Shown here piece after piece: positions 1,775 through 58,885 of a stretch of 64,000 nucleotides of DNA. Origin of the DNA: Owenia fusiformis (lineage: Eukaryota; Annelida; Polychaeta; Sabellida; Oweniidae). The DNA is taken from the NCBI GenBank assembly GCA_903813345.2, contig CAIIXF020000002.1, positions 34,798,109 to 34,862,108 on the forward strand, read 5' to 3'. The position numbers and the translations under genes were made by a program. Under the pieces are notes generated by a model, which saw only the letters and a program-made list of their open reading frames with translations, did not search any database and was not told where the DNA came from. Position 1 is the first letter of the stretch; each line of letters opens with the position of its first letter.

Positions 1775-2263
1775 GATAGCAACTAGACCTTGGTCCCAAC
1801 AAGTCGCGGGTGAAGTCCACGACATATCAGAGTTCATAATTTAATCGCGATCATTTCTTACTCATTTGACATTTACCTACTCTACATTGGTATACACATT
1901 ATTCACACAATACTTTAATCTTAGCTCTGCCAAAGAATTACAACGGATGCAACCCCGTGGAAGAACTTGTAATTCTAGAAGTAGAAGCTTCAGTCGGGCG
2001 AGACTAGCGATACATTCAGTTTGATAATTACAGTACACACATTTACGAACCTTACACGACCGCCAAATCGGGTAAGTAATTTCAAAGACAAGTTATGTGT
2101 CATGTGCTATAAAGTCAACATTTGGAATGATTGAAACATTATGAATATTAAACAAAAAATATTATTAATTATCATCTTAAAATGGTGATTATAGTCATGA
2201 TTACCATACCATCTGAAAAATTATTACTGTACATTCAAAAAATTGTTTTAGGGACCAAGAATC

Positions 2264-27419: not shown

Positions 27420-30400
27420 GTAAGACAATTACTATATATATTTGAGGGGGTGATTGGGTTAACATGTTACACTCCCCTCCATAAGTTTGGCAACTACATT
27501 TGGATCACTTATTAAAATGTATTGTGATTTAGAGAAAAATTAATCATTAACATTCTTTGAATTGCAATCCAGTGAAAACTTGCAGTTGTTAATTTTACAA
27601 AAGGGAGTGTACGAGCAAGGAATAAAGGGAACAAGCATGAAATCACGAGTTTCTTTTACATAGAAAGTTAAGCCATTAATTCTTACATATGAAAAGAAAA
27701 TATGTTTTGATCAGTAATTATTTTTTACAAGAATCTATTGAGAAATATATTTTCTTTCATCTCCTCTACAATTGCTTATACATTTTATTTCACATGTACT
27801 GCAATCAACAATTTATCCTTTTACAGATAATGTTGTGGTTACATGATATTTGCCATGACACGAATATGAATTTTTTACAATTAAATGACATTTGTGATGT
27901 GAAAAAACATAAATTAAATGTTTCAACATATTTATAAATGTATAAAGTCGATGTATAAAAGTGTTTCATGCAAAAATACAGCTCACTTAAATAAGAAAGC
28001 TTAATTTTTGGGGTCAACATAACTGTTATGAATATATTTGTCAAATTAATCATGAAAAGAGTTTTGGAAATTGAATAATGAAGATCAACATGGGATCTAA
28101 AGGGAATCAGTAAAGTCCCTTAAAAAGTTTTTGGCCCTTTTTTTAAACTCAATTCTCGTTGGACACTGGAAGTTGTATCAAGTCCTTTTGGACCCTTTCA
28201 TGCAATAATATAACTAATATCGTATAAATAATATATGACTTGTTTATAAATCCTGTTTCATGCAATATATATAGGTTATTTACTGGGAGGGATTGAATAT
28301 GGGTTTTATTCCGAGGGACAATATGATATTGACTGAAGGGTAATATGATATTGACCGAGGGAGCGCAGCGACTGAGTGTCAATATCATATTTCCCAAGGT
28401 CAATATCATATTTTCCAAGGAATGAAACCCATATTCAATCCCGACCAGAAATAACCTATTTATTCCATAATACATTCCTCTAAAATGTTACATTTTGAAA
28501 ATACTTTTATCAATTAGCCAAGGTTAAAAATAACAGGAAAACCAAAAATAGGTTAATACGTTCCAATACGATTTTTTTCCCGGGGACAATACGATTTTTT
28601 TCATGTAATACGCTCCAATACGATTTTTTTCCCGGGGACAATACGATTTTTTCATGTAATACGATTCAATACGATTTTTATTCCTTCATATTTCCCTGGG
28701 AAAACAGCAGTATTATGGAATAAATATATTTCTTTTATTGACAATTGACGATTTGCGATCACCGAATGGCTTCTATCTTTTAGTGACGTCACAATTAGGC
28801 CAGCCAGCTTTAGATGCTTGATTTTGAGAGATTATCTTCTATATTTCATGCTTTATTGATTAATTTTTCACAAACGCATTCAATTTGACTAGATCAACAT
28901 TCATGCTAAGCATATGCCAAGTCTAAGATCTTACTGACATGATTTAGATAGCGGTTAAGCGCCCCCCGATTTTAGGCATCGATGTTTAATATGAATTTCA
29001 CCCAAACTTCGCACATATATAGATAAACTCATGATCTAGTCAAATCGGCATACCTGGTAAATATCCGACCCATGGTTTTCATTAAATAAACGACAATATG
29101 TTTAGCTCAAAACTGCCACGTGTCCGCCATTTCATGATTCCATCATTTCTAGTATCATTTCTATGTGACGTCACACCATAAGACTAAACACATGACAACA
29201 GTATCCATAAACAAAATTCCTGAATTCTGATCGCAAAAGGTCAATTGTATCAAAACATGACACATCACAATAGTCTATGTACAAACTAAACTGTCTTGAC
29301 TCAAGACAATACTACACTATTAACTAAATGCTAGACTACATTAATAATATAACTCATATACTATAAATAATATGACTTGTTTATAAATCCTGTTTCATGC
29401 AATAATATAACTAATATAATATAAATAAATAATATGACTTGTTTATGAATCCTGTTTCATGCAATAATATAACTAATATAATATAAATAATATGACTTGT
29501 TAATAAATCCTGTTTCCAGGACAACAACACATGGAGCAGTGTTAGCGGCAGAACAGTTGTGCTAACGTCTACCAGTCTTCTTGCGCTAACAGAGCTTGAG
29601 AGGTTAGCGTTGACCAAGATAGCATTAGCGCAGCTCCAGGCACTGCAGTTAGGGTGTACGATCACCATCCCTAAAGGTAGGTGATGGTTTAGATTGTCCA
29701 ATGATTTGTTGTTTGATGAGAGTTGCCATAGCAACATATGTATACAGTCCGGTAAATATCAGAGAAAACCAAATAATTTCCCTGGTCTTGAAAATTGATT
29801 GGTAATAATGAATGAATTTGTTCATATTTTTACATTTGATGCAAATATTTACATATTGGGGCATTCAAAGTTAATTATTTGTTTAATATTTTGATGAAGG
29901 GCCAAACTTTACCTAAAACACCCACTGAGCCATGGGCCATTGAGCTCATGTGCATTAATACATGCAGTTGAATTTGGGAACTCTTCACTACATATTATCT
30001 CTAAAGTCACAATTAAAAACAAAATCTTTGTCCAGTCATTCATTTTGCATTTTAAAACTTTTACTCAAATCTCCCTTGATTTCTTTTTATACTAAATCTG
30101 ATAGGTGGTCTCTGACTCACTATATAATGGATGGTAAAGTTAAATGCATTGAACCTTAAATAATGATTGTGCACTTAATATTGAAAATGGTAACCTATTA
30201 CCCAATACTGTATAATGCATTAATCAAAATGCAATGTCTTAATTTACTCATTCACCAAATGCTGTCACACCCATGCCAAGACATGAGACATGTCAGTTTA
30301 TACATGTCAGTTTATACACATACAGGGCAAGCTTTACTGATACATCTGTCTTCTTTAAAATGTTTCTTCACTTTTTATTTCGTTTATAAGTCATTAACAA

Positions 30401-33400
30401 GCACTTTTAAAATGCGATATAAGTTGTAATAACAAGTTGTCCATCCACCACATGCTGATCTAAGTTAACAAATGATGCGATTTGTGAGCAACAATCAGCT
30501 TTCTTTATGAGTATGTAAAATAGATAAATTTGCAAATGTGACCAAGTAGAGGCATATTTGGAAATATATATATTACCCAAGATATTGTTTTGTTCATCCA
30601 TTTGTTAAAAAAATATGGGGACTTTTTTAATACTGTAAATAACATTTTCCCCAAAATACTGATTTTATTCAAACACGAAGCCAGTATTTTGTAAATTATA
30701 CCCAAATATTTGAACATTTAAATATGACTCCAGATCTGCCAGTAATATGACCCTTGTAGGTGCTTTTGAACTTGTTGACCTTTGACCTTGATTTAAGGTA
30801 TTGTTGACCTTTGACCTTGATTTAAGGTATTATGATGCCCAGCCAAAACAATAACTTAAAACTTGGAATAATATTATGATTAACCCAATAGAACCTAAAG
30901 TACATACATTATTCCAGTTTTACTGGGTTACCTCCGAAATACCTAATAATAAAGAAGCTCTCACTACTTGAGTTTATTTCCCATAAATAAGAGAAACATC
31001 CTTGAAAACACATTGCTATTTCTGAGAACTTTGTTTAGATTTCCCTTTTGAGTGGAGAATGTGGGATTTCTCTTGAATTGAGCCAATGTTGTATTTTTAG
31101 CTATCAGACCTTGAGACAGTTAAGTATATTTTAGAGATTGAAGTATAAAGTGTTCAGCCTTGAAAACTTGCTACTGAAATATTTTTTGGTATTATCCTGT
31201 TAAAATGCATTCAGGTCTAACACAAATAGACAAAACAGTTGTACAATTCAATTAATTTCTACTTAAATCTTCATCCAAATGTAATGGGAAATCCTTATGT
31301 AGTTTTAAGGTTGATAGAATTGCTTTGGTCTGTTAAAACATTTCTTTAGAAAGGAAACATTCTACTACTGAAGGAGTGCATGCAATTAAAAAACTGGTGT
31401 ATTCCAGAACCATGCAATTAAATTGATATAATGGTGATGTTATTTGAGATCCAAAATGATGAAAAGTGTAGATTCTTTGAAATGATCAATTTGCAATTGC
31501 AGGCCCGTAGCCAGGATTTGCCAAGGGGGGTTCATGTTTTGAAAAATTCCAGGGGGGTTCACTTGTGACAATTTTGGTCCTAAAATGGCTCGAACTACCC
31601 CATGGCTACGGGCCTGATTCGGATGTATTAATAAATTACAGAATGAATGAACACATATCTATTACTAAAGCTATATTTTGAAAGTCCTCAGAATGAAGGA
31701 CAAGGTCAAAAGTACCCAATTTTCTTGTATTAATGTCATACAAGGTCAATTTTTAAAATGATTTTTATCTATGGTGTGAATATATACAATACCATGTGGC
31801 ATTTTTTGTTTATATTTGTAAACTAAGAAACTAAATTGAGCCACAAAGATTTTGAAATTGGTATTTATTATTCGTGTCAATTTATGGTAAGTGCAGCTTT
31901 ACTTTGTTTGTATTAGACAGAATTTAAGAAACTTTCATATTTTTCTAGATGATGAGCAGAAATCTGAGAAGAGGACGACATTCTCCTTGAAGAAGAGAAC
32001 CCAGTCTGCTCATCTTGGAGGCCTCATTGATAATATTAAAGATAACTTTACTAAAGATAAATCAAAGCAATCAAAAGGTAAGAACTCAGTCTGCTCACCT
32101 TGGAGGCCTCATTGATAATATTAAAGATAACTTTACTAAAGATAAATCAAAGTAATCAAAAGGTAAGAACCCAGTCTGCTCATCTTGGAGGCCTCATTGA
32201 TAATATTAAAGATAACTTTACTAAAGATAAATCAAAGTAATCAAAAGGTAAGAACCCAGTCTGCTCATCTTGGAGGCCTCATTGATAATATTAAAGATAA
32301 CTTTACCAAAGATAAATCAAAGCAATCAAAAGGTAAGAACCCAGGATGATAACCTTGGAGGCCTCATTGATAATATTAAAGATAACTTTACTAAAGATAA
32401 ATCAAAGCAATCAAAAGGTAAGAACCCAGTCTGCTCACCTTGGAGGCCTCATTGATAATATTAAAGATAACTTTACTAAAGATAAATCAAAGTAATCAAA
32501 AGGTAAGAACCCAGTCTGCTCATCTTGGAGGCCTCATTGATAATATTAAAGATAACTTTACCAAAGATAAATCAAAGCAATCAAAAGGTAAGAACCCAGT
32601 CTGCTCATCTTGGAGGCCTCATTGATAATATTAAAGATAACTTTACCAAAGATAAATCAAAGCAATCAAAAGGTAAGAACCCAGGATGATAACCTTGGAG
32701 GCCTCATTGATAATATTAAAGATAACTTTACTAAAGATAAATCAAAGTAATCAAAAGGTAAGAACCCAGTCTGCTCATCTTGGAGGCCTCATTGATAATA
32801 TTAAAGATAACTTTACTAAAGATAAATCAAAGTAATCAAAAGGTAAGAACCCAGTCTGCTCACCTTGGAGGCCTCATTGATAATATTAAAGATAACTTTA
32901 CTAAAGATAAATCAAAGCAATCAAAAGGTAAGAACCCAGTCTGCTCACCTTGGAGGCCTCATTGATAATATTAAAGATAACTTTACTAAAGATAAATCAA
33001 AGCAATCAAAAGGTAAGAACTCAGTCTGCTCACCTTGGAGGCCTCATTGATAATATTAAAGATAACTTTACTAAAGGCAGAAACCAGGATGGTATCTTCG
33101 GTGGGGGGGGGGGGGGTCATTGGCAGTATAAAGATAACTAAGATAAGTTAAAATAGAAGTTAGTCTTTCATCTTATAATGTCTAAATGAGATCAAATATT
33201 GTATTGAAACAAAAGAACATTCTTGAAGAACAAAACTACTGTACATGAATTGTATCAAATGTAATAGTATACAAATAGTGACTGCCATTGTGCGGCTGAG
33301 GGAATAGTACATTGTAGAGGATATTCCCAAGGGGAAATCATTTACACTATTGCTCGAAATTAGGCAGTCACTATTTGTTTTATTATATACCCTATACTGA

Positions 33401-36400
33401 CTCTTGTCCCGTTTCCTCTGCGAAGGCCAAAAGGCTTAGAAAGCCCCCTCCCCGGGTCCATTGTTAGCATTATAAGCTGTGACGTCATCAGATGCTCAAC
33501 AGAAATGTTTGCCTCTGAGACTCTCACTTGACAAATTCAATCGCGTTTAACATGCGGAATAGATTATCATAACACTTGAAATCACACAGACGTATAGTTC
33601 AATAGTTCAAATGTATATTCCCGCTGACGTCACATTTGAGGGAATATAACTTTCCGAGGGAAATAGTAAATCTATTTCGGAACACGTGACTAGGTATTGA
33701 CCAATCAGGATTAGTGTTACATATTGGGTATATAATAATACTTGATATTCAATCAAACTGATTTTTACTTTTAGTATACATGTATGTAGCTTTATTAATT
33801 TTCTCAAGTCATTCTTTGCATGTTTTATGTTTCAAGATGGTGGTCCAGGGTTGGTATTTGGCATCAGTCTTGCGAAATGTATCGCCAATGATATCACCCA
33901 GAGAAAACGACGCTCCCTTTCATTGAAGGAACGACGGGAAAGCATTGATACGGGGCAGACCCCAAGAAGACAAAAGTAAGTTGTTTATGATCTAACTAAT
34001 AATGGATTGCTATTTGGGAATCATGTTTAAATCAATATGATTCAAAAGGTATAGTCCCTGTTATTCTGATCCTAAGTGACCCCAAAATGTTTTTTTTGAT
34101 TCATGAAGACCTCCTACAGACTTTGATTTAAATCTTTTCTCTGATAATATCAAAACTGTAAAATATTGCTCATCTTTTAAAGGAACATTGCGATTTATAG
34201 AGGATAAAATGGTTAAAAATAACATTTTTCTGGCTATAGACATGATTGCCTGGTCTAACACCTTCTCTGGTGAACCTATTTTTGAAATATGCATGAAGGT
34301 CCATTCAAAGTCGATGTTTGAACCTTTAAAAAGCCAAATTTAGACTGAGGATTGAAAAGGTTCTCAGAACTTATATTTTTTACGAGGAGTAAATGGTGAT
34401 AATGTTCTTTTTTTATGATGCGAGGAAGTCAAAACAAAAAATTGTTAAATTACAAAATAGGTTGGGTAAAGGATATGTCAAAGTCGTTTGATCTCGTTTC
34501 GGAAGCAATATTTTGACATTTCCTTCGCCTAGAATTCCTTAAAGCAGCTTGGCAAGTTCCAATTGTAAAGATTAATTGACACCAGCTATATGAGCAATTG
34601 TAATATATATGAGATAATAATATTAAAAAAGTTTATTTCAAAGTATATTGATAGTTACAAATCATTATAAATTAAAAACAAATTAGGCGTAATTAAGAAT
34701 CAAAGTTATATTGATTCAAAGACTGCCATTTTGATTGAAATAGGGGAGGGGGGAGGGTTACAGCTGCAATGAATATGCGTGTGGCACTGGAGAAGCACAA
34801 ACACTGAATTAATAGTGTCAACTGTATATATATATATTATGTTACAGAGTTTTATCCCAAAATGATGTTATTATTGCTTATAGCTCTCCATATTCAGTTT
34901 AAATGATGAGATGAGATTATTGAGCACCCCTCCATTGTAGTGCTTAGATGTGATGAAATTAATTCAAGAATTTTTTATTTTGCTCTTAAGTTTTTCGGTA
35001 TTGTGGTTAATTTAAGTTTTTTACCAGTAGCCAGCATTAACTATAACAATATAGCAATGGATTTTGTCTATTTATAATTCTATTTTTTAATATCCTCCCA
35101 CAGGAAATCGAAATCTCTTCCAAAAAAACTAAAACATGTCAGTATACCAGCTCACCTAGTAGCTTATGCTGAACGATATGTTGAAATGTGGTCACAATCG
35201 TCACCTACTGTAGATGAAAACAGGTATAAGGAGTGAATACTAGACCCAGTTAGCTTGGTTCAAATACTAACATCCTCTCATGAGGGAAAATATTCCCAGC
35301 AGTGAATTCTCAACCCAATTATATGCATTAAAATACTAATATGTTTTCATTTCTAGAATTATTAGAGTTATTTAAGAACATGAACTCGTTTACATGTACC
35401 GTGGTACATTACTTCCAATATTAACAAACCACCTTTAAAGTTTATTCCCCAGTTCTTTTCAGTTTTCAGCCATCCTTGGGGGTTGGTCATTTTATATGGC
35501 TATCCCATTACTTGGGGATTGATCATCTCATAGGGTATCCCTTTGCCTGGGGATTGATCATCTTAGAGAGGTATCCCATTGCTTGGGAATTGATCAGCTT
35601 ATAGGGGTATCCCTTTGTTTAGGGATTGATCATCTTATATATGGCTATCCCTTTGCTTAGGGATTGATCATCTTATATGAGTATACCATTGTTTAGGGAT
35701 TGATCATCTTATATGAGTATCCCTTTACTTTGGGATTGATCATCTTATGTGAGTATCTCTTTGCTTGGGGATTGATCATCTTATATGAGTATCCCTTTAC
35801 TTGGGGATTGATCATCTTATAGGGGTATCTATTTGCTCGGGGATTGATCATCTTATATGGGTATCCCTTTTCCTGTGGATTGATCATCATATATGGCCAT
35901 CCCTTTACTTGGGGATTGATCATCTTATATATCCCTTTACTTGGGGATTGATCATCTTATATATCCCTTTACTTGGGGATTGATCATTTTATATATGGCT
36001 ATCCCTTTGCTCATAAAGCTGTTTTACAAACATAATGTTTAGCTCAATGTTACATGAGCTCATAGCAGTGTTTTATTATTGCCTAAATCTCTACTAAAAA
36101 TGTTAACCCCTGCCCCATGATACCACTAGATGATTCTAATCAATTTTGCAACCCATTTTACATCCAGCCTATCTTTATGAAATGCATGGCAAGCTAGTTC
36201 CTTTACAGCCTGCCTTTTAACCATGTTTACAGATTTGCTTATAAGTTCCCAGTTTTGATATTATGTTGTTTCTTTTTTGCTGCATTTTAGCCAAACCATA
36301 ATGTTGATTAAAAAGGTTTAATTTTATACATTCACTTAGGTTAAAGAAAAACAATACGTTGTGGAGTAAGATGTGTTCTTATGTTTTCTTTTATATCATC

Positions 36401-39400
36401 TATGAGAATTTCCAGTATTTAACCTTTTCGAGATTTTTACTAAAATTGCTCCCAAAGGCTATTTGGTAATACATGTATTTATCAAAATTGCACAAACTTC
36501 TTAAATGTATGTCATGCATCTACTTATACCACCATAGTGTATGTTTCTGTTGTAAAATTGCAAAAACTGGCCAAAATGAATAATGCTTTGAACAAGAGGT
36601 TAAATGATAAGGTTTTGAATTCATGCCTCAAATTGTGGTTGTTTTCAGACATAACAGTGAATCTGCCAGCTCGCTGGAAAACCAGTCAGCAAAAGAGAAG
36701 AATGCTCCCTCTCCAGGTCTAAAACATGTAAGTAGCTCTACTAACTAGTCTATATACAGTAAACCCTGTATATACCTCCCCAGATCTTAAACATATAAGA
36801 AACTGTACTAACTAGTCTATATACAGTAAAACTTGTATATAAACCTCTCCAGGTCTTAAACATGTAAGTAGCTCTACTAACTAGTCTATATACAGTAATT
36901 TTTTCACATTTGAGAGTTGAACCATGATACTTGGCGAATCAATGTAACTTTTGATCAGCTTTCAAATGATATATAACACATACTATGATGACACTGGTAT
37001 ATGTCTGCCTAGGGGGGGGCATACTTCGGGACACACTGTATATATACAATAAAACCTTTTGAATCCAAATGCCACGGGAACCAGCCAAAAGTGTTAAGAT
37101 TATCAGGTGCTCCTATTTCAAGGTTTTCCTAATATGTGTGTCTATCGGAACTGAGAAAAATGTGACCAAGAAAAAGTGTTCACATTGAGAGCTAGGTGTT
37201 CTGTAGTTCCTATATAGTAAAACCTGTCTAATTCAAATTCCAATGGAACTGGCCATAAGTGTTTGGATTTACAGGTGTTTCAAGTTGCAAGTTTTTTGTT
37301 CGGATTGGAGAGGTATTCAAATATACAGGTTTTACTGTAGATTGTATTTAGAGGTGTTCAGATATACAGGTTTTACTGTATGAGTGTTATGTAATGGAAG
37401 GTTCTAGATTTAGGGTTTATCTCAAAGGATGTATATAAAATATTAGGGATATTATAAGCAATATTTTTTCTGGTCGAATGTGACCAGAAACTGCAATATT
37501 TTTTATCGGCCTAAATTGAGATTCATTATTTTAACATGCAGTATCTCTCCTTTAAGTCACAAGTAATAATTGACCTGAAATTCACACCTTCATTCACAAT
37601 CAGCACCATCTATATTTGAGGCTATATACTTGACACTGAAAGTTAATTGGCTTTTTGAGTTTTAGCTCCCCCAGGCAGGCTTGCCATCTTGAGTTCCAGA
37701 TTGCTTTCGAAACATTCTCCTTTGGCTGGGGCAATAAAACCTAAGCCATAACATGACGAATAAAAGTGCATATAAAAACTAAAATCTGATTATCTAAACT
37801 TTAGCGTAGAATGGTGGCATTATGTTATATAAGAGGTCAGGTTGGCCTACCTTCAATTATATAGATGATTTACCCCTTGAGGATTATCGAAAACACAATC
37901 TCCTCGAGCTTGGATTTCAATTTGTGGAATATTCTTAAACTTAGAGGAATCAGCAAGGATTATACCAAGCAGACTCAGGATTTGGTGTTTTAACTGTAAG
38001 GAAATTGTACAAAAAATTGGAACCTGATGAAAGAAATATTTTAGTGATTGATTATTTGAAATTGTTTGAAAAGGAGGCTTTCAGAACTGGTTATCTTCAA
38101 CCTGAATTTTGCCCTTGACATATAAGAAATAAACCATCTCTTAAATGGATTTTTTAACCAACTGTGGTACTTGAAATGTAATGTGTCGTCTTATCTGCAT
38201 ATATACTATACAGTACTACTATACAGCCAACAATAGTGGATTAAATTGTCATGTTTTATATGGGGTATTTACGTCATTGTTACATCCAAGAGAACATTTT
38301 TCTATTCCTTTCTCGGTTATTGCATACTAATTCACACATTTTATCTTTAAGTTCAATAAAGTGTGTGATTTTTTACAGTTATTTATGTGTTATTGTAAAG
38401 ATGACCTATTTCTTAACTGAATTTCTCCCAAATTACTCTATATCTCACTCTATTTCACTTTTAAACATTAATCGTGTATTATTTTTCGCAGGGGTATGCT
38501 CCTAATATCTGGTGTTTATATTGAAGTCTAAATTAGCAGGACTACAGTATAGTAGTTCGTTTTCACTTTTAAGTTGCTTAGATTCTCTCAAATATCTCTC
38601 TCTGAATTGCCTGATTTCCTAGGTGTTCTGGGCAATTTAGAGTGTTGTCGACATGTCTGTCCTTGCTAATTCCACTCTTACTTATCTATTTTTCATTTTG
38701 AATCCTGGTCACCATGACATTGAATCTTGGGTAGGGGAATTCCTATTAATGTTGGCTTTTGAAAATATTTGAATCTGGAAAAGCTTTATAATGGAGGAAT
38801 CAGGTGTTAAACCTTTCTGAGTTAAATATTCTTTCCTTGTATTTATAGTGTAGACATATAGTAGTCTATATCAAGTTCTTGTATTTTATAGTCTTGCCTT
38901 GAGTCTCGTATTCTGTAATTATCCCATCGAACGAAGTTCGGAGGGATATAGGGAACGCCTCCGTCCGTCCGTCTGTCCGTCCGTCCGTCCGGGTGATAAC
39001 TCAAATACCGTTGGCCCGATTTTGTTCATATTTTGTACACATATACCCTATGGGGGTAGAAGTTCTGCTCGAAAGCCGATTTTCAAAATGGCCGCTCAAT
39101 TCAAAATGGCGGCCATTTTAGTGCCGATTTTACAGTAATTTAGGTGCAATATGTAAAACTGTAATAGCAATATGTTTTAAATGTAAAAAAATTATGAAGG
39201 ACATTAATAAAGCTATAAATGTAGACATTAAAGAAGCACATGGCAGCAATCTTGAAAAATGGCGGCCTTTACTCGTTATTTAACGATTTTTGCTATAACT
39301 CGAAAAGTAGTGGAGCGATTTTGTTCATATTTGGTATGTGAATACTATAAGCATTGCACACTGCCTAAAGACACTTTTGGTAGAATCTTGAAAAATGGCG

Positions 39401-42400
39401 GCCTTTACTCGTTATTTAACGTATATTACTATAACTCGAAAAGTAGTTGAGCGATTTTGTTCATATTTGGTATGTGAATACTATAAGCATGGCACACCGT
39501 CCTATAACACTTTTGGTAGAATGCGGCCATTTTGAAAAAAAATTTGAAAAATGGCCGCCATTTTAACGTATTTTACTATAACTCGAAAAGTAGTGAAGCG
39601 ATTTTGTTCATATTTGGTATGTTTCATATTTCATATGTGAATACTATAAGCATGGCACACTGTCTAATGACGCTTTGGGTAGTAGGTGGCCATTTTGAAA
39701 AATGGTCACCATTTTTATGTTTTTTACTATAACTTGAAAAGTAGTGAAGCGATTTGGTCATATTTGATATGTGAATACTCATGAGCCTTGCACCCTGTCT
39801 CATGACACTTCAGATAGTAGGCAGCCATTTTATAAAAATGGCTGTCATTTTTACATTTTTTACTATAACTCTAAAAGTAGTGGAGCAATTTTGTTCATAT
39901 TTGATATGTGAATACTTTAAGCATGGCACATTGTCTAATAAAACTTTGGGGAGTAGTCAACCATTTTGAAAAATGGCCACCATTTTTATGTGTGTTATTT
40001 TACAAGTACATGTATGCGATTTTTCAAAGATTTTATAGGTGGCTACTTAAAATCATATTATTTCTTCTGATGACAACTTGGCTAGTGAGCAACCATTTTG
40101 AAAATGGTGGCCTTTCTGGTGTGTTGTTTTATGATGTTTGCTATATATTTCGTTTGTAAAAATGCCAGCCATTTCTGTTCGATGGGAATCGCTACGCTTT
40201 GGCGTTGCCGTTGTTCTGGTTTAATATTGGGTGAGAGGATCATTGGGATGTAAAAGTAAATATTTACAAATTTTATGGAAGCGTTCTGTAATTAATATGA
40301 TTTTTCAATTATTGAAATTTGGTATTTGAATATCCCTTTAATTTAACTTCAATAGAGGAATCATTTGCTAGTGAATTTGTGAATCGTACAATCCATAAAT
40401 TAATGTAAAAAATAAGTTGAAACTCAAAATAAATCTGACCACAACACTACAGCAAGTGCATGTTTTGAGCAGATTGTTAGTTGTAATTAACAAATGAGTT
40501 TGAGGTGATGGATTGCTGAACAATGGCCTCTACCAGGTGAAACTAAGATTTACCTCCCATCTGGCTTTTCCATTCAAATCTCTCACAAAATTTGAATTTG
40601 CAATTCTAAATGCGCAATATATGCGAAGTATTTACCTATAATGAAGCATATGTATAGTGGATGGACACTCCAGAGATGTTGACATTATTTAAAGCTTCAT
40701 TTAATTTTTAGAGTTGAAAAATATCGTATTTTTATGACTATTTTTGGATGTTTCTAATTGGCAGACTTAATGTCTACGTGATTGCCATCAGCTTACACAG
40801 CCAACAAGTCTTGCTAACCTGCACATGCTAGACTTGCTTAAAATGATCTGTGTTCCAACAAATTGTGGAAATCTAATGAAATGGTGCGAACAGACATGTA
40901 GTCAATGCTCGTAATTGCATAGAATTGACAGAAAATTAAACAGTTCGTTATTTTAAGAGAACTGACTGAAAAGGACCATGACCATAGAGTCATAGACTGT
41001 TGCGTTATGCATGGGTGGAATGTCATTCAGACTGTAAGGTTTTGGTTGTGAGGTCACCAACACATGCGTCAGTGAAATAACCCTGACTTTAATGGAAAAC
41101 TGTACTCCCTCTGGTTACTGTCATTAATTTTACAGTTAGTCATTTGACCAATCAGAGAGCAACATAAGCCCTAGACAAATATGTCAACTTATCTAACAAA
41201 CATGTATCCAGAAAGTTTTGGTTGATTAATAATGACCAGCCCTGATGTCATAGTGAGCTCAGATGTTTGTCAATAATGTAAGAGTATGAGGTGAACTCAT
41301 TGGGTCTTGCAAAGAGTAAAGAGGTTATCACGTGGGTCAATGAAGTAAGCCACAATTAATTTACTGTAGCTCATTGCCTTATAGGAACTTCTTAGAAACT
41401 TTAAATGGGGCTATTCAATTGAATCACAAATTCTGTAAGAATCATGAATAACTGCTGCATCAGGTCATCTTGGATTTAACCCAAAAAGAACTTTGAAATA
41501 TTACAATTGATTTTCAGTTATTGAAATGAGTTTTTCTAGCTGCTTTTTGAAAAAATGTTTTATTTGGGGAAAGGTGGTTGTCTATGGAAAATGTAATTAT
41601 GTTCTGGGGCATTTTGGAAATATTGAAATGGGCCCTTGTTTAGCTAATGGCACACTCGATCAGAGATTAGTTTTAGACTAACTCCTGAATTGGTCAGACA
41701 ATTTCACTGTTTAGCAGCCCCACCCCCAGTTCTGGTGACCATCACACCCTGAGTTATGAAACAATTCAAACCCATTGTCCTTATATTTTCTTGCAGAAAG
41801 GAATGTGTTTCAATGATTTCAGAAATGAATCTTTAAGTCAAAAGAATGCAAAGAGTACATAACCTTCATTGCTGTAAAATATATAATATTTTATGAATCG
41901 GAAATAGACCCTACCCAAGGGTTGAAGAAAAAAATGGGAAAATTCAGAATAGATAATTTGATATTGCTTATTGTCATCATTTCATACAGTGAAAAGTAGC
42001 TTGGAAATGTTTTCATTTTGGAAGAAATAATTTGTTAAATCGTACCTATAATGCATAATCCTAATTCTATGATGCATTGTTTAGTACTCAATTGAACTCT
42101 ACCGAGCATGTTTGACCTCAGAGATGTTTCTTGTCTGGTAAGATAGATATGTTGGAGTTGGAATCTAAACTAGCTAGCTGATATAGCATCTGCTTCAAAA
42201 CAGTCTTCCAAGTTTCTACAATCAAGCAGCTTATTTTATTAAATGGCTATATATACAGTAAAACCTATACAGTTGAACACCTCTCTAAGCGGAACATCTC
42301 TAACTGTGAACACCTCTCACTCCTAATTTCGTAACCAGGGAACACCTGCTCTGGTCCATTTTTTGAGTTTTTACTGTTCTTGCCAGAAAAATTATTTCAG

Positions 42401-45400: not shown

Positions 45401-48400
45401 TTAGTATTTTGTAAGACATTTAAGATGGGATGCACTGAACTTGGCAGATTGGCTGGTTATCAGAGCAGCTCGTAATTGCTTAACTATCTGTTGAATTGTG
45501 TAATACTCCCTGCTTGTTCAGTAATACAAACATCTCACTCTTTTTTGTTGATGCCCATCTGCATGGCATTCTGTGTTACCTGTTTTTTCTTGCAACTAGT
45601 ATATAATATTTTCTGTTATCATGCATTTTGAGGTCTCTAATTTAAATGTTTGTTGATTTATTTTAGGTTTACAGACTCTTGGAATCTTTAGAGTGGGAAG
45701 CTCCAAGAAAAGAACTAAACAGGTTAGTTGTTTTATAAACAGGTCAGTTGTTTTGCAAACGGGTTAGTTGTTTTGCAAAAAGGTTAGTTGTTTTGTGAAC
45801 AGGTTACTTGTTTTGCAGACAGGTAAGTTGTTTTGCAAATAGTTGTTTGACAAACAGGCTAGTTGTTTTGCAGACATGTTAGTTGTTTTGCAAATAGTTG
45901 TTTTGCAAACAGGTAAGTTGTTTTGCAGACAGATTAATTATCCCACCGAACGAAGTTCGAGGGGGATATAGAAAAGCCGTCCGCTGGATATGACAAGTAA
46001 ATAAAATCAATTATAATCTACCTATATGATGTAGATATCCAAATGTTGGTCTGAATTTATCTTTGTGGAAAGAATGTATGCTTCAGTTGCTCTTTAACAA
46101 AACATGTGGGACAGTGTATCTATATATTACAAGACGTCCGTCCGTCGGTTCGTCCGTCCGTTCGTCCGTCCGTCCGTTCGTGTGTCCGGGCAATAACTCA
46201 AATACCGGTTGACGGATTTCATTCAAATTTTATAGGCTTATGCCTTATGGGTGTAGGACCTCTGCTCGAGAAGGAATTTTCAATATGGCCGCTTAATTCA
46301 AAATGGCGGCCATTTTTCGGAAAAAATATAATCTTTATTAACTCAAATACTAGTGGATGGATTTGGATCAAATTTTATATGCTGTTGCATTGGTACAAAG
46401 GAGCTTTGCTCAATAAGACATTTTCAAGATGGCCACCAAATTTCAAAATGGCGGCCATTTTTCGTAAAAAAACGTTATCTTTGATGACTCAAAGACCATG
46501 AAATGGATTTGGTTCAAATTTTAGATGCTGATGCCTATGGACATTAGAGCTCTGCTCAAGAAAGGATTTTCAAGATGGCAGCTAAATTTCAAAATGGCTG
46601 CCATTTTTCATAAAAGAACGTAACCTTTGATAACTCAAATACCAGTTGACGGATTTGGTTCAAATTCTATATCCTGATGCCTAGAGACAAAGAAGTTCTG
46701 CTCAAAAATAAATTTTCAAGATGGCCACTGAATTTCAAAATGGCCGCCATTTTTCGTAAAAAATGTAATTAATGATAACTCAAATACTAGTGGATGGATT
46801 TGGTTCCAATTTTATATGCTGATGTTTAGGGGAAAAGGAGATCTGCTTCTATAGAAATTTCAAAGGCGATAGCTGAATTTCAAAATGGCTGCCATTTTTC
46901 ATTAAAAAAGTAATCTTTGATAACCCAGATACCATTGGACGGACATTCTTTGCTAAAGAAGAAATCTAAAGATGACAGCTGAATTTCAAAATGGCAACCA
47001 TGTTTCATAAAGACATAATCTTTGATAATTCAAATACCAGTGGATGAATTTGAAGTTGTTTTATAAACAGATTAATTGTTTTGCAAATAGGTTAGTTGTT
47101 TTGAAGACAGGTTAGTTGTTTTGCAAATAGTTTAGTTGTCTTGCAAACAGGTTAGTTGTTTTTTGTGGCATTGGAAGAAATTAGCATTACAACAACAACA
47201 ACAACATTACCCTAGTCACATCATCTTCAAGGCCCTTATTGTGAAATCCTCGTAAATCATATTTATAAATTATCCACTTTGTATGTAAACAGACCCTCCC
47301 TGCAAATAATAAACCCTGAAAAGTTTAAAGTGGTAAAATCAACTTCATTGAATAAAGTATTGCAGCTCCATCTTTCATTGAAGAGTGCATGCTATCATTT
47401 AGTGTCATCAGTACCATATAAAATATGAAAAACATAATCAAAATTGCATTTAAGACTCGCCATATTTTATAATTTAACATTTTAAAATAAGTGTATCTTA
47501 AAAATTTTACATTTTAAATATATAGTTTCAAAACTGAAATGATAATGTATAAATATGTTTTTTCAGCTCCGGGAAGAGTTTGACAGTGGGAAAGATGTTA
47601 AACTAAATGAGGAGCACAATCCCCATGACATTGGGGCCTTGTTGAAGGAATACTTTAGAGATCTACCAGAACCTCTTCTTACAAGAGAACTCTATCCTGC
47701 CTTTGTTTCTGCATCAAGTAATGTCATTATTTAGAATTAAAATATCAGAACTGTCATATGTAAAAATGCGAAACCTAATTTAGCAATAAAGTATTATGTA
47801 TATGTAGTTAGCTATGAATAATATACTGGAGAAAATGCTTGTGAAAACAAAAATGTGGAATGGGAGACTTGTTTTGGAAATACATGTAGTTTTGGTGCCT
47901 GCATTATCTTTAATGTTGAGCATATTAAAATTAAACTACATTGTATTCATTTTTATAATACTAAATAGATTTTTTATTTCTTGTCACGATTTCAGGACTT
48001 GATGATAATCAATGTAGGAAGTGTCTTAGGTGTTTAGTAGAGCTGCTCCCCGTTGCCAATAGAGACACTCTACATGTCCTTCTGAAGTTTCTACATAAAG
48101 TCAATGAACATTCCTCAGATCACATAGATGATACAGGACAAGAGGTGAGTCTTACCCAGCATTCCTCAGATCACATAGATGATACACGACAAGAGGTGAG
48201 TCTTACCCAGCATTCCTCAGATCACATAGATGATACAGGACAAGAGGTGAGTCTTACCCAGCATTCCTCAGATCACATAGATGATACACGACAAGAGGTG
48301 AGTCTTACCCAGCATTCCTCAGATCACATAGATGATACAGGACAAGAGGTGAGTCTTACCCAGCATTCCTCAGATCACATAGATGATACAGGACAAGAGG

Positions 48401-51400
48401 TGAGTCTTACCCAGCATTCCACAGATCACATAGATGATACAGGACAAGAGGTGAGTCTTACCCAGCATTCCACAGATCACATAGATGATACAGGACAAGA
48501 GGTGAGTCTTACCCAACATTCCTCAGATCACATAGATGATACAGGACAAGAGGTGAGTCTTACCCAGCATTCCCCAGATCACACATATGATACAGGACAA
48601 GAGGTGGGTCTTACTCAACATTCCTCAGATCACATAGATGATACAGGACAAGAGGTAAGTCTTACCCAGCATTCCTCAGATCACATAGATGATACAGGAC
48701 AAGAAGTAAGTCTTACCCAACATTTGTCAGATCACATAGATGATACAGCACAAGAGGTGAGTCTTACCCAACATTCCTCAGATCACATAGATGATACAGG
48801 ACAAGAGGTAAGTCTTACCCAGCATTCCCCAAATCACATAAATGATACAGGACAAGAGGTGAGTCTTACCCAACATTCCTCAGATCACATAGATGATACA
48901 GGACAAGAGGTGAGTCTTACCCAACATTCCTCAGATCACATAGATGATACAGGACAAGAGGTGAGTCTTACCCAACATTCCTCAGATCACATAGATGATA
49001 CAGGACAAGAGGAGAGTCTTACCCAACATTCCCCAGATCATATAGATGATACCGGACAAGAGGTGATTCTTACCCAACATTCCTCAGATCACATAGATGA
49101 TACAGGACAAGAGGTGAGTCTTACCCAACATTCCCCAGATCATATAGATGATACCGGATAAAAGGTGATTCTTACCCAACATTCCTCAGATCATATAGAT
49201 GATACAGGACAAGAGGTAAGTCTTACCCAGCATTCCTCAAATCACATAAATGATACAGGACAAGAGGTGAGTCTTACCCAACATTCCTCAAATCACATAG
49301 TTGTTTAGGACAAGAGATGAGTCTTACCCAGCATTCCTAGGATCACATACATGATACCTTGATTTCATTTTTACTGGTCATCTTTTTCAACATAATTTTC
49401 AAGGTATTGACAGTCCCAAATGCATCTGTGGTTTTAAACAACAAACTACAAAGCATCTAATCTTCAAATGCCCTCTGTTGAATGTTATAAGAGAGAAACT
49501 TTGGGGGGAACTCAGGAACATGCCAGAAATGAACATTTTCTTTACAGGATGCTCTATAGAGCAAAAGCTGAATATCTTAATGTATGGCAGAGATGGAGTT
49601 AGCATAACATGCAATTCTTCAATATTGAAGCATTTTACATCCTTTTTGTGTGAATGCATTGATATAATTATATAGTTTTAACACATTCCTGCCATGCATA
49701 CATATATGTTGGTAGTCATTTTGTTGCTATTATGTAAATTTGAATAAACTTTGTATTAACAGGGCCAATAATGCTGATTTCAGCCTCGGCCCTGTCATTT
49801 GTAGATAATTTTGTAAAGTAAAATAAAGAAACCATAAAAAACTAAAACATACATGATACCGGACAAGAGGTGATTCTTACCCAACATTTCCCAAATCACA
49901 TAGTTGATACAGGACAAAAGGTAAGTCTTACCCAGCATTCCTCAGATCACATACATGATACCGGACAATAGGTGAGTCTTACCCAACATTTCCCAAATCA
50001 CATAAATGATACAGCACAAGAGGTGAGTCTTACCCAACATTCCTGAGATGATACAAGATGAGGGATGGGTTTTATCCAATTTTCTTCAGTATTATCCAAC
50101 ATTCTACTTTCCTTGAACACATAGAATTTCCAAGTATTTGTTAATAAAGATGAGGAGATTAATGTTCAAACTTCATGAAATACTGCATATTTTCTATCAG
50201 ATAGTTTTAATCGTGGTTTAGTCATACTGTAAATTGTTTTTACTTTTTCAGGTGCCAGGCAATAAAATGGGGGCCAGAAATCTAGCAACACTTTTTGGGC
50301 CAAATATTTGTCGCAAACAAAAAGGTGGCGCTGATAAAGAGTTCAGAGTTGAGGGAATCGAGATGGCAACTGAAAGCAAAGAAATCATACAGATTGTTGA
50401 GCACATGATTCTAAACATTGATGAGCTGTATGAGGTAAATGTTGTTATGTTGCTAGGTTTAGGTTTATGTTGTTATGTTGTTATATTGTTAGGTTTATGT
50501 TGTCATGTCTTGATATTTAATCTTGGATATATTCATAAGAGAACATTTTCTTCTCCAGTACGCAATTGTTTGAAGTTTTAAAGTTTTTAGTAGTTTTTTT
50601 AAAATCATGTCCAATGTACCTTCGTATTTATTTTTTATCATGTTCAAAAAAAGGGGTAAGTTTTTTTATCAAATTGAGACTCAAATGAATCCATTGTTCT
50701 ATGGCCTGTATAATAACAGAGTATATACTGGATAGCGATCCCAAGGTAGTAGACTAATATGAATCTATCTAGCCTTATAATAAAATGTGTTGTTAGGTGC
50801 CTGCAGAGACCCATAATGAAATCCTGCAGTACATATTGGAGAGTGATCCTGAGGTAGTAGACTAATATAAATCTATTGTTTAATAGCCTTATAATAAAAT
50901 GTGTTGTTAGGTGCCTGCAGAGACCCATAATGAAATCCTGCAGTATATATTGGAGAGTGATCCCGAGGCTGTAGACTAATATGAATCTATTGTTTAATAG
51001 CCTTATAATAAAATGTGTTGTTAGGTGCCTGCAGAGACCCATAATGAAATCCTGCAGTACATATTGGAGAGTGATCCTGAGGTAGTAGACTAATATAAAT
51101 CTATTGTTTAATAGCCTTATAATAAAATGTGTTGTTAGGTGCCTGCAGAGACCCATAATGAAATCCTGCAGTATATATTGCAGAGTGATCCTGAGGTAGT
51201 AGACTAATATAAATCTATTGTTTAATAGCCTTATAATAAAATGTGTTGTTAGGTGCCTGCAGAGACCCATAATGAAATCCTGCAGTACATATTGGAGAGT
51301 GATCCTGAGGTAGTAGACTAATATAAATCTATTGTTTAATAGCCTTATAATAAAATGTGTTGTTAGGTGCCTGCAGAGACCCATAATGAAATCCTGCAGT

Positions 51401-53477
51401 ATCTATTGCAGAGTGATCCCGAGGTAGTAGACTAATATAAATCTATTGTTTAATAGCCTTATAATAAAATGTGTTGTTAGGTGCCTGCAGAGACCCATAA
51501 TGAAATCCTGCAGTATATATTGCAGAGTGATCCCGAGGTAGTAGACTAATATAAATCTATTGTTTAATAGCCTTATAATAAAATGTGTTGTTAGGTGCCT
51601 GCAGAGACCCATAATGAAATCCTGCAGTATATATTGGAGAGTGATCCTGAGGTAGTAGACTAATATAAATCTATTGTTTAATAGCCTTATAATAAAATGT
51701 GTTGTTAGGTGCCTGCAGAGACCCATAATGAAATCCTGCAGTATATATTGGAGAGTGATCCTGAGGTAGTAGACTAATATGAATCTATTGTTTAATAGCC
51801 TTATAATAAAATGTGTTGTTAGGTGCCTGCAGAAACCCATACTGAAATCCTGCAGTATATATTGGAGAGTGATCCTGATGCAGTAGACTAATATGAATCT
51901 TTTGTTTAATAGCCTTATAATAAAATGTGTTGTTAGGTGCCTGCAGAGACCCATAATGAAATCCTGCAGTACATATTGGAGAGTGATCCCGAGGCAGTGG
52001 ACCATTTACTTAAGAGAAAGGGATCTCAGTAAGTAACATTAAATAAAATACTAGAGGTTGTCAGGCTGTCTCTTTTACAAAATGCAAATATTCTAAAAGA
52101 ATTCGAAAATGTTCTTGTTCTGTAAAATGTACGCAAATCAAGTTTGATTTTAAGTAACTTTTGTGTATCAATTTCTTTCATTTTTTCGTCAGTGATGAAT
52201 CATTCATTCAATTATACATTCATCCCAAAAAAGATAAAGTATGCAATGTGTCACACACAGTTCTAATCCTTACCTATGTAGTACCTGGACTGAGAATTTG
52301 GTATCTCACAATCTGAAGTTTTGATTTTTTTTTTTCTATATTATATTCTATATATTATTTTATATATTGCTTACATCAGTTTGATTGTAACTTTAAAATG
52401 CCACTCACTTTGAAGTGTTTGAAATATAAGGTTGCTTGTATCACACAAAAGAATTATGTTGTCAATAAAGAATTGGAGTTGTTTGCTTACTTCGACATGA
52501 TTATTATTTGGTCATGAATCTTAAATGTCCAATCAAACATGGTTCGCAAGGGGAGTCTTATATTATTACGATATAGACTACTTGTTTTTGACAAATTGTA
52601 ATAACATATATTTATCATGTATGTGTGTATTTAATGTTATATTTACACTGTATCAACTAAGTAGGGCCAGGTAAGAGGCCAAGCTGTAAAGGCACAGACT
52701 CTGTATCAGTTAAATATTTTTTAACTCATTGATTATTTCAGGATTGAAGTTGACTTGGACACTTCCAGCAGTATGTGGGAAGGAAGTGACAGCTCCTCTC
52801 TCCCACCTAGTTCACCAAATCCCACAGATACCATGGAGTTCCACCTGCCCACACGTGGCAGTGAGGGATCCATGACGTCACTGGGCTCTCAGAAGACAAA
52901 CAGACCAGTGTTCACTTTAGACAGAAGCCCAGTGGCGGAGGTGACTGTTGAGACACCATCATTAGTGGTGCCATCTATAGACCAATCAAAGCATAGATTG
53001 AGTACCCCCGAGCCTGGATGGCTTAGCGGGGGTTCAACTCCTAGGACACCTAGCCCCACATTTGGTAGTCATGCTCGATCACCGAGCCCACGACCTTCAC
53101 CTCTCCCCTCGAGGTCATCAAGGTCACCTTTACCAAGTCCAACCCCTGTGAGGACAAGATTAGGGCCAAAACCACCAAATTTACAAATTCTCCCAGATAC
53201 AATGATAGACAAACGAGGCTTAATAGGCCCAGGGGGTCATTCCCCTGGCCCAGAGTCAATGTACCCTACCCCTCCTAGCAGTGCTAGTAGTACTAGTTCA
53301 CCAAAATTTCGGCGGAAAAGTAACCCACATAATTTCATTCAGCCAACTTCTTCTGCACAGCGCCCCCTAGGTGTGGGTATGCTGGGTAGAGACCCAGAGT
53401 GGCAGCAAGAAAGGTGGCGCCACTGGGAAGAGTTAACACAAGGTGAGGAGAAGCTAGAACAGGAAACACTCGTCTGA
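26244..53477 (+). CDS. ARHGAP6-like: ARHGAP6-type Rho GTPase-activating protein (1121 aa, 13 exons)
   Basis: By family it speeds GTP hydrolysis on Rho-type GTPases and acts on the actin cytoskeleton. Exons: 26244-27419, 29520-29676, 31949-32077, 33837-33975, 35104-35223, 36649-36727, 42730-42928, 45667-45722, 47567-47717, 47996-48144, 50252-50434, 51937-52028, 52742-53477. The lengths sum to 3366 bases and all phases agree. Order: disordered N-terminus (1-392), a conserved WSSVSGRTV / CTITIPK segment (exon 2), basic linkers, the segment [14 protein letters not shown], the RhoGAP domain (about 645-846) and an S/P-rich tail. The ARHGAP6/36 subfamily is recognised from exon 2 and from [20 protein letters not shown]. 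Human ARHGAP6 is about 970 residues; the extra length is mainly N-terminal. Six introns carry arrays abutting a splice junction. I chose the first ATG of the long exon-1 frame; an extra upstream coding exon cannot be excluded. Confidence 0.92.
28272..28457. mobile_element. long foldback element in intron 1
   Basis: The left half GGATTGAATATGGGTTTTAT is mirrored by ATGAAACCCATATTCAATCC on the right. The outer arms are AGGTTATTT and AAATAACCT. The whole 186 bases can fold on itself, and the interior repeats AATATGATATTGAC-like blocks in both directions. No coding capacity is visible. Confidence 0.65.
28457..28726. mobile_element. inverted-repeat element with internal ~54-bp repeats
   Basis: The ends TATTTATTCCATAATAC and GTATTATGGAATAAATA are perfect inverted repeats. 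The interior holds repeated blocks with CAATACGATTTTTTTCCCGG and TTTCATGTAATACG at roughly 54-base spacing. It abuts or nests with the foldback element to its left. Confidence 0.6.
29520..29676 (+). CDS. ARHGAP6-like: exon 2: conserved ARHGAP6-family segment
   Basis: It encodes [20 protein letters not shown], then [16 protein letters not shown] and CTITIPK, which align by eye with the WHSVSGR ... ITIPK segment of vertebrate ARHGAP6. This segment is a strong subfamily mark outside the GAP domain. Its 3' splice site is the last of three tandem copies of the preceding intron sequence (29340-29519). Confidence 0.85.
30776..30820 (-). promoter_or_regulatory. duplicated nuclear-receptor DR1/ERRE-like site in intron 2
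   Basis: TGACCTTTGACCTTGA occurs at 30776-30791 and again at 30805-30820. Each copy contains a perfect DR1 (reverse strand AGGTCAAAGGTCA) overlapping an extended half-site (reverse strand TCAAGGTCA). The unit is a 29-base tandem duplication. HNF4, RXR-heterodimer, COUP-TF and ERR-type receptors bind such sites in animals; binding here is inference. Confidence 0.45.
31500..31616. mobile_element. 117-bp MITE with CAGGCCCGTAGCC ends, intron 2
   Basis: The ends CAGGCCCGTAGCCAGG and CCATGGCTACGGGCCTG are near-perfect inverted repeats. The interior has two GGGGGGTTCA blocks. The ends resemble those of the element at 13235-13516, so the two probably belong to related families. No clear target duplication is visible. 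Confidence 0.65.
31949..32077 (+). CDS. ARHGAP6-like: exon 3 of the ARHGAP6-like gene, edge of the 85-bp array
   Basis: It encodes [20 protein letters not shown] followed by [20 protein letters not shown], a basic linker. The last 78 bases of the exon are the first copy of the 85-bp array. Only the donor at 32078 (AAAAG|GTAAGA) keeps the frame into exon 4. Confidence 0.8.
31999..33076 (+). repeat. ARHGAP6-like: 85-bp tandem array containing an exon end and 5' splice site (~12.7 copies)
   Basis: Each unit contains CCTCATTGATAATATTAAAG and ends CAAAAGGTAAGAAC, so exon edge and donor are copied together. Because 85 is not a multiple of three, reading past the first donor shifts frame and meets a stop within unit 2 (after VCSPWRPH). 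Use of later donors would therefore give non-productive transcripts. Copies differ by few bases (for example AGCAATC or AGTAATC), which implies recent amplification or conversion. The array ends in a G run near 33100. Confidence 0.9.
33272..33740. mobile_element. nested inverted repeats in intron 3
   Basis: CAAATAGTGACTGCC at 33272-33286 is mirrored by GGCAGTCACTATTTG at 33363-33377. TATTATATACCC at 33381 is mirrored by GGGTATATAATA at 33726-33737. These look like the ends of two adjacent or nested short elements. The interior contains no protein-coding frame. Confidence 0.5.
33837..33975 (+). CDS. ARHGAP6-like: exon 4 of the ARHGAP6-like gene
   Basis: It encodes [20 protein letters not shown] and then [20 protein letters not shown], which matches by position the FG.PLSQVIAND segment of ARHGAP6. 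The exon ends CAAAA|GTAAGT in phase 2 and joins exon 5 (35104-35223). Confidence 0.82.
35475..36014. repeat. minisatellite of ~33-36 bp in intron 5 (~15 copies)
   Basis: The unit contains GGGGATTGATCATCTTATAT and GTATCCCTTTGCTT. Copies vary in length and sequence. It begins about 250 bases after the exon 5 donor and so does not overlap a splice site, unlike the other arrays in this gene. The minus-strand open frame across it (repeated MINPQVKGY) is only a shadow of the repeat. Confidence 0.85.
36711..36895 (+). repeat. ARHGAP6-like: three-copy array containing the end of exon 6 and its donor
   Basis: CTCCAGGTCTAAAACATGTA at the exon 6 edge recurs, slightly changed, at about 36777 and 36846, each time with a following CTAACTAGTCTATATACAGT. 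The unit is 63-70 bases. Each later copy also carries CAGTAAAACYTGTATATA, like the end of the CAGTAAAACC MITE family found nearby. The third copy keeps an intact CAT|GTAAGT donor; the second has ATAAGA and is dead. Confidence 0.75.
37041..37200 (-). mobile_element. CAGTAAAACC-family MITE, diverged copy
   Basis: Read in reverse, it matches the copy at 57014-57194: both share CCAGCCAAAAGT, TCAAGGTTTTCC and GTGTTCACATTGAGAG in the same order. The terminal repeat is partly decayed (ATAAAACCTTTTGAATCC). Confidence 0.55.
37217..37383. mobile_element. CAGTAAAACC-family MITE, short copy with duplicated tail
   Basis: TA-flanked. It begins GTAAAACCTGTCTAATTC and ends ACAGGTTTTACTG at 37337, with a second GATATACAGGTTTTACTGTA tail ending near 37380. 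TA flanks and these ends fit Tc1/mariner-type or pogo-type non-autonomous elements. Confidence 0.6.
38923..40187. mobile_element. GTCCG / ATGGCGGCC repeat element, intron 6
   Basis: The ends CCCATCGAAC and GTTCGATGGG are perfect inverted repeats. Near the left end is a run of GTCCGTCCGTC. The body is about seven diverged monomers of roughly 125 bases, each with ATAACTCGAAAAGTAGT, GATTTTGTTCATATTTGGTA and an AAAATGGCGGCC-like box. A second member lies at 45942-47052. No transposase is visible, so it is non-autonomous or satellite-like. Confidence 0.65.
42257..42365. mobile_element. CAGTAAAACC-family MITE remnant
   Basis: It begins ACAGTAAAACCTATACAGTT and continues with AACACCTCTCTAAGCGG and GAACACCTGCTCTGGTCC, as in the family copy at 57014-57194. 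The right end is lost or unrecognisable. Confidence 0.5.
42730..50434 (+). CDS. ARHGAP6-like: exons 7-11: RhoGAP catalytic domain
   Basis: The domain runs from [16 protein letters not shown] to about [18 protein letters not shown] gives the arginine finger, Arg675 of the model. [18 protein letters not shown] and [10 protein letters not shown] are the other two hallmark helices. All catalytic features are present, so an active GAP is expected. The exon 10/11 join reads DDTGQE-VPGNKM, where vertebrate ARHGAP6 has a similar DGQEVTGNKM. This join carries the 51-bp array. Confidence 0.92.
45667..45722 (+). CDS. ARHGAP6-like: exon 8: arginine-finger exon
   Basis: This 56-base exon encodes [19 protein letters not shown] (first codon shared with exon 7) and carries the catalytic arginine. 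It ends AAACAG|GTTAGT. Its last bases are copied in the 20-bp array that starts here. Confidence 0.88.
45717..47165 (+). repeat. ARHGAP6-like: 20-bp array starting at the exon 8 donor, split by a 1.1-kb insertion
   Basis: The unit, roughly ACAGGTTAGTTGTTTTGCAA, repeats about ten times in 45717-45940 and five more times in 47053-47165. The real donor ACAG|GTTAGT is the first copy. Two later copies, near 45822 and 45911, read ACAG|GTAAGT, a better match to the splice consensus than the real one. Reading past the first donor shifts frame and meets a stop within a few units. Confidence 0.8.
45942..47052. mobile_element. GTCCG / ATGGCGGCC repeat element inside the 20-bp array
   Basis: It begins CCCACCGAACGAAGTTCG, like the element at 38923, and carries a GTCCGTCCG run near 46136-46190. 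About six monomers each hold ATAACTCAAATACCAGTGG-like and TTTCAAAATGGCGGCCATTT-like boxes. No matching right terminal repeat is clear, so this copy may be truncated. It sits within the 20-bp array and is younger than it. Confidence 0.65.
48109..50052 (+). repeat. ARHGAP6-like: 51-bp tandem array of an exon end plus 5' splice site (~28 copies, split by a LINE)
   Basis: Unit: CATTCCTCAGATCACATAGA, then TGATACAGGACAAGAG|GTGAGTCTTACCCAG. The first copy is the end of exon 10 with its real donor. As 51 is 17 codons, the frame stays open through about 20 units (repeated [17 protein letters not shown]) to a TAA at about 49159. Most copies keep a good donor (GTGAGT or GTAAGT); a few are damaged (GAGAGT, GTGATT). 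Any downstream donor in the open part adds a multiple of 17 residues to the RhoGAP domain. Confidence 0.92.
49359..49846 (+). mobile_element. 5'-truncated LINE 3' end with 14-bp target duplication
   Basis: ACATACATGATACC flanks the insert at 49345-49358 and 49847-49860. The insert encodes the C-terminus of a LINE-type reverse-transcriptase polyprotein: [20 protein letters not shown] (a CxC...H...C zinc-like motif), ending at a stop near 49672. A 3' UTR follows, ending in an A-rich tail with AATAAAG. It shows a 3' end, A-rich tail and target duplication, as target-primed insertion leaves. It is too short to be active. Confidence 0.85.
50700..52000 (+). repeat. ARHGAP6-like: 114-bp tandem array containing a 3' splice site and exon start (11 full copies)
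   Basis: Each unit reads TAATAAAATGTGTTGTTAG|GTGCCTGCAGAGACCCATAA and on through the start of exon 12. Acceptors end near 50796, 50910, 51024, 51138, 51252, 51366, 51480, 51594, 51708, 51822 and 51936. Only the last copy continues into real exon 12 (GCAGTGGACCATTTACTT). The other ten read GTAGTAGACTAA or a close variant, so the frame stops after about 22 residues, and an AATAAA follows about 35 bases later. The minus-strand open frames of 246 and 200 residues are shadows of this repeat. Confidence 0.92.
51937..53477 (+). CDS. ARHGAP6-like: exons 12-13: post-GAP helix and S/P-rich C-terminus
   Basis: Exon 12 encodes [20 protein letters not shown] and then [11 protein letters not shown], the conserved helix after the GAP domain. 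Exon 13 is long, rich in Ser and Pro ([17 protein letters not shown]), and closes with a conserved-looking [14 protein letters not shown] segment. The protein ends in ETLV, which fits a class I PDZ ligand (T at -2, V at 0). The stop TGA is at 53475-53477. Confidence 0.9.
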
Positions 53478-58729: not shown

Positions 58730-58885
58730 GTGAACTTATACAACTGTACTTCAAACATGCAGAGAGCGAGTGATTTTAATTACATATGCGTATGTAAGCC
58801 TTAATTACAGTGTAACTCTAAATTAATTAATTTTTTAAAACTTTGTTGACACCAATCCTAGTGGCGCTCTCTGGTGTGATACACA

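Follow-up and report, generated by a model that had tools for sequence, protein, structure and literature searches.

Why should a single gene carry tandem arrays abutting a splice junction in six of its introns? The gene that raises this question lies in a window of 64,000 nucleotides (the whole stretch of DNA that was analysed), and an earlier note on it had proposed either a process that duplicates DNA at exon borders or selection on alternative splicing. To these can be added repeats of the kind called mirages in amphioxus, in which the unit lies across an exon-intron boundary. The gene reads as 13 coding exons with GT-AG borders, and its spliced frame is open over 1,121 residues. A single RhoGAP domain (residues 653-808, E 2.1e-45 in Pfam) is encoded by exons 7-11. 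Exon borders were taken from this open frame, from the domain and from the alignment with RacGAP1, the best PDB match of the product, which is gapless over the join of exons 8 and 9. We take the gene to be ARHGAP6-like, the human protein having the same spacing at the exon 10/11 and 11/12 joins and a similar C-terminal end; the name comes from reading the sequence alone and from this likeness, which is not a test. The G+C content of the window is 34.8 percent and GC3 is 0.37-0.43, a composition that does not resemble amphioxus, so the animal may belong to a different group.

Tandem copies of the gene's own border sequence were found at 6 of its 24 splice junctions, namely the acceptors of exons 2 and 12 and the donors of exons 3, 6, 8 and 10 (Table 1). 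Coordinates and unit lengths were obtained with TRF, which returned 40 rows for the window; 8 lay outside the gene, and the 32 inside it were merged by hand to 17 arrays by joining overlaps and split halves. In a TRF-independent test, each junction was aligned with at most 3,000 bases of the intron adjoining it and compared with 60 first-order Markov samples. Exactly the six array junctions were flagged, so that both methods confirm the arrays that the earlier note had described in introns 1, 3, 6, 8, 10 and 11, while none of the remaining 18 junctions exceeded its 60 samples, as an older, decayed mirage might. Five arrays span their junction and, when cut into units, proved to repeat coding sequence together with the splice signal, as had been claimed. 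These five have the unit across the exon-intron boundary that marks a mirage, and the sixth, at exon 2, stops 3.5 bp short of its junction.

Table 1. Coordinates of the features discussed, in positions of the window
Feature	Position	Strand	Junction	Unit and copies	Basis and remarks
AMP-binding/reductase gene, at least 19 exons	2262-12505				AMP-binding, AMP-binding C-terminal and NAD-binding (male sterility) domains (Pfam)
ARHGAP6-like RhoGAP gene, coding exons 1-13, 1,121 aa	26244-53477	+			Open spliced frame
Exon 2 acceptor array	29343-29516	+	29519/29520	62 bp, 2.9 copies	TRF; ends 3 bp before exon 2
Exon 3 donor array	31996-33076	+	32077/32078	85 bp x 12.7	TRF; unit = 82 nt of exon + GTA
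Exon 6 donor array	36708-36898	+	36727/36728	67 bp x 2.8	TRF
Exon 8 donor array	45717-47162 (45717-45936 and 47054-47162)	+	45722/45723	20 bp	TRF
Exon 10 donor array	48107-50049 (48107-49357 and 49847-50049)	+	48144/48145	51 bp	TRF
Insert in exon 10 array, about 490 bp	49358-49845	+			Flanks compared; 13-14 bp flanking repeat CATACATGATACC
Exon 12 acceptor array	50720-52002	+	51936/51937	114 bp x 11.3	TRF
Exon with RWD and Prp3_C domains	57234-57899	minus			Pfam

Copy numbers ranged from about 3 to 29 across the six arrays, the unit counts for exons 3, 6, 8, 10 and 12 including some partial end units. Introns 3, 10 and 11 consist mostly of array (57, 67 and 81 percent, respectively); in introns 1, 6 and 8 the share is 11, 3 and 18 percent. 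The claim that amplification had multiplied the splice sites held, for sites that are putative, at exons 3, 8, 10 and 12. At exon 3, the donor is kept in 12 of 13 units, the 13th being truncated, and a decayed unit extends beyond the array to about 33150 (score 19 versus a maximum of 15 in 500 shuffles). The two halves of the exon 8 array contain 12 and 6 units, 8 of which fit the donor pattern. Those of the exon 10 array contain 25 and 4, with GT kept in 26 of the 29, and the 11 units of the exon 12 array provide 11 acceptors with one common 15-nt context, the authentic acceptor being the last. At exon 6, the claim did not hold as well, since only one of the two extra copies among its 3 units keeps GT. 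The other copies of the exon 2 array lack AG, and no acceptor was multiplied there. An 8/30-bp array at 50439-50517, which starts 4.5 bp inside the exon 11 donor and excludes the donor itself, is a possible seventh border array.

Other DNA seems to interrupt the arrays of exons 2, 8 and 10. For exon 2, a lone copy of the unit near 28198-28262 suggests a separation by about 1.1 kb. The halves of the exon 8 array are separated by a repeat-rich insert, also of about 1.1 kb. This stretch holds one of two related elements (38921-40190 and 45940-47050, ends placed by eye; the second sits within the exon 8 array), which have in common the start ATCCCANCGAACGAAGTTCG, a stretch rich in CGTC/TCCG and, by TRF, 136- or 146-bp arrays. 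The exon 10 insert has an A-rich 3' end and, judged by eye only, is retrotransposon-like. Its flanking repeats resemble a target-site duplication, which is weaker evidence within a tandem array; its open reading frame had no Pfam match, and tblastn against plasmids found none. A short palindrome-ended element, CAGGCCCGTAGCCA ... TGGCTACGGGCCTG, was also spotted by eye at 31502-31617.

A common origin of the six units was rejected. Only 1 of the 15 pairs of units (exon 6 with exon 8) was more similar than 99 of 100 shuffles, which is near the chance level and bears out the statement that the unit sequences are unrelated. The placement of the arrays was compared with two nulls. In the unit null, one unit per array was placed randomly but never wholly within an exon; for the 17 arrays, 1.00 junction matches were expected and 6 were seen (P=1.9e-4), and for the 11 arrays of at least 100 bp the expectation was 0.87 (P=6.5e-5). 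In the more lenient whole-array null, where entire arrays were placed and at most one junction could be touched, 2.29 matches were expected versus 6 (P=0.017, and P=0.006 for the 11 long arrays). The junction tolerance of 4 bp was chosen after the arrays had been seen; counting strict spanning only gave 5 versus 0.93 expected (P=0.0013), and a tolerance of 5 bp gave 7 versus 1.02 (P=1.9e-5). Chance placement in the ARHGAP6-like gene was thus rejected under both nulls, weakly under the whole-array null, and these nulls together with the junction alignment support separate events of one kind, at borders above chance. The earlier judgement that chance is hard to accept is therefore upheld for this gene, by tests that are all post hoc, the gene having been picked for its look; among tens of thousands of genes, a few near P 1e-4 would not astonish.

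The excess over the unit null could point to a mutational process that favours exon borders, such as duplication tied to transcription and splicing, with hot spots throughout the genome of the species, although we know of no mechanism for it. That both donors (four) and acceptors (two) are affected, by unrelated units, would fit such a process, and so would the presence of mirages in several amphioxus genes according to extracts of two reports (PMC3087553, PMC3902484). It is opposed by the lenient null, with its P of only 0.017, by the choice of the gene after the fact and by the neighbouring AMP-binding/reductase gene, where TRF found border arrays at 0 of 36 junctions (Fisher P=0.003 versus 6 of 24). 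This comparison is limited by introns that sum to 7.3 kb in the control and 23.9 kb in the ARHGAP6-like gene, and the RWD gene lies outside it; one control junction exceeded its 60 samples (15 versus 13) and, carrying no TRF array, was scored 0 in the Fisher test. Altogether, we hold border hot spots to be unlikely.

As for the neighbours themselves, the product of the AMP-binding/reductase gene is an animal adenylation-reductase protein with an open frame. An identical 466-bp direct repeat (10169-10634 and 11498-11963, starts about 1.33 kb apart) is located in an intron of this gene. The exon with RWD and Prp3_C domains we take to be RWDD2-like, and an open reading frame near it, at 58475-58735, had no Pfam match.

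Alternatively, the arrays might be maintained to regulate splicing, with the extra sites serving as decoys or poison exons and, at exon 10, producing RhoGAP isoforms extended in steps of 17 residues. Exon 10 is the best case for this, as its 51-nt unit preserves the frame and a full-length frame is obtained from 19 of the 29 units, that is, from 18 extra GT donors. The common context of the exon 12 acceptors, the 8 of 10 extra copies there that are readable as a 57-nt in-frame cassette and the donors kept in nearly all exon 3 units would also agree with such a role. Elsewhere, extra sites bring stops, which speaks against it: an early stop followed from all 11 extra donors of exon 3, the single one of exon 6, all 7 of exon 8 that fit the donor pattern and all 10 extra acceptors of exon 12, and at these four junctions the open 1,121-residue frame is obtained from the exon-proximal site only. 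Likewise, the Pfam score of the RhoGAP domain dropped from 158.0 bits with no exon 10 copy included to 153.1 with one and 150.2 with four, which favours the exon-proximal donor weakly, since any insert lowers the score. Judging from these reading frames, the spliceosome probably uses the exon-proximal site.

Variation among the copies was then considered as a sign of constraint. Among the 23 full-length exon 10 units there were 7 silent, 13 missense and 1 stop variants, where 5.3, 14.8 and 0.8 were expected. Each of the three arrays examined showed an excess of silent changes (together 13 of 36 versus 8.8 expected, P=0.08); the 'intronic' row for exon 12, inflated by the authentic last unit, was not used. 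The codon pattern does not depart significantly from the neutral expectation and so does not support coding use of the copies, though the silent excess leans toward constraint and to that extent favours a regulatory role. In 2 of the 3 arrays tested, donor sites were conserved no better than other positions of the unit, the donor 9-mers varying as much as other sites in exon 10 units (0.048 versus 0.036) and exon 8 units (0.099 versus 0.061). At exon 3, 0 of 72 donor positions were changed versus 23 of 948 elsewhere, an outcome with a probability of 0.17 at the background rate. Selection on alternative splicing, which the earlier note had offered as an explanation, is thus left unsupported by neutral-like codons, donors unconserved in two of three arrays and stops at four junctions, and we give a regulatory role rather little credence.

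Both ideas could be combined, with border hot spots in a non-amphioxus lineage and with certain arrays, foremost that of 51 bp, offering a ladder of alternative donors through which a RhoGAP loop would grow by 17-residue multiples; we regard this as quite improbable, but if it were true, length polymorphism of an array would become length polymorphism of a protein. Wrong insertion or multiplication of repeat copies by the assembler is extremely improbable, even though one gap of 500 N shows the window to be a scaffolded draft and near-identical copies are easily mis-sized, given the scattered substitutions between copies (mean pairwise difference 3.0 to 6.4 percent in the exon 3, 10 and 12 arrays) and the inserts that split arrays, so that wrong copy numbers are possible and arrays invented outright are not likely.

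We therefore return to mirages, and consider it probable that the gene contains six independent neutral minisatellites of this kind, with the exon-proximal copy doing the splicing. Under the mechanism of duplication that we infer, each array would have started from a small tandem duplication that happened to span (in five cases) or touch (in one) an exon-intron border, and would have grown by unequal exchange or slippage to its present size. The gene would tolerate the arrays because the copy adjoining the exon still carries the genuine splice site and all others are spliced out as intron, while a duplication wholly within an exon would usually harm the protein. Afterwards, the arrays would homogenise, decay and gather inserts. 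No significant gradient of identity was found along any array; the exon 12 array has an identity of 0.84 in its intron-side unit versus 0.96-1.00 inside, and the exon 10 array one of 0.67 in its end unit, which runs into the insert. Against neutral mirages speak the frame kept over 19 donors at exon 10, the lean toward silent changes, the unchanged donor positions at exon 3, the missing gradient of identity and the crowding of six arrays into one gene, with none at the 36 junctions of its neighbour, which exceeds what would be expected of a uniform process. Either way, with five ladders of splice sites in one gene it can be tested how the spliceosome selects one of several near-identical sites placed at graded distances, and the arrays also make it possible to ask whether exon borders duplicate more often than other DNA.

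Among known systems, intron gain by tandem genomic duplication, of which a case is reportedly known from potato (PMC4974935), is alike in that sequence around a splice signal is duplicated and unlike in that the ARHGAP6-like arrays create no new intron. The Rogers model of such gain is cited in the portion of PMC3087553 that was available; a duplicate supplying both intron ends was not found by the junction alignment, the repetition being confined to one end in all six introns. In human genes located within segmental duplications, variable internal tandem repeats lie at exon-intron boundaries, according to an extract of PMC2812944. These are also minisatellite units that alter exon or intron length, but they belong to recent primate paralogues and half of them lie in coding sequence, whereas the present units read best as intron.

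The closest likeness is to amphioxus, and the statement of the earlier note that no system of this kind had been described is wrong, as excerpts of PMC3087553 and PMC3902484 make clear. As excerpted, the first reports tandem repeats across exon-intron boundaries in Adh3, where mirages were named, and in two globin genes, at both 5' and 3' borders, with units of 10-160 bp and, in one gene, haplotypes of 6 and 3 units. It describes concerted evolution in which centres are homogenised and edges excluded, RT-PCR that suggests normal splicing despite the mirages, and the proposal that they are seeds of new introns. The second, in the passages at hand, likens PGBD5 repeats to mirages and cites troponin C. 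Amphioxus huntingtin scaffolds contain tandem repeats too, the excerpt of that report (PMC2206037) leaving mirages unmentioned. No mirage outside cephalochordates was seen among the matches listed in our literature search, which does not prove absence; should the present animal prove not to be an amphioxus, mirages would not be peculiar to cephalochordates. As in Adh3 and BflGb6/BflGb9, so far as the excerpts go, units in the ARHGAP6-like gene span the border at donors and acceptors, keep AG or GT in many extra copies and vary in length from case to case, and the gene differs in having six arrays at once, with up to 29 units. The kind of array is thus already known, and what this locus adds is their sixfold occurrence within a single gene and, perhaps, a further animal group.
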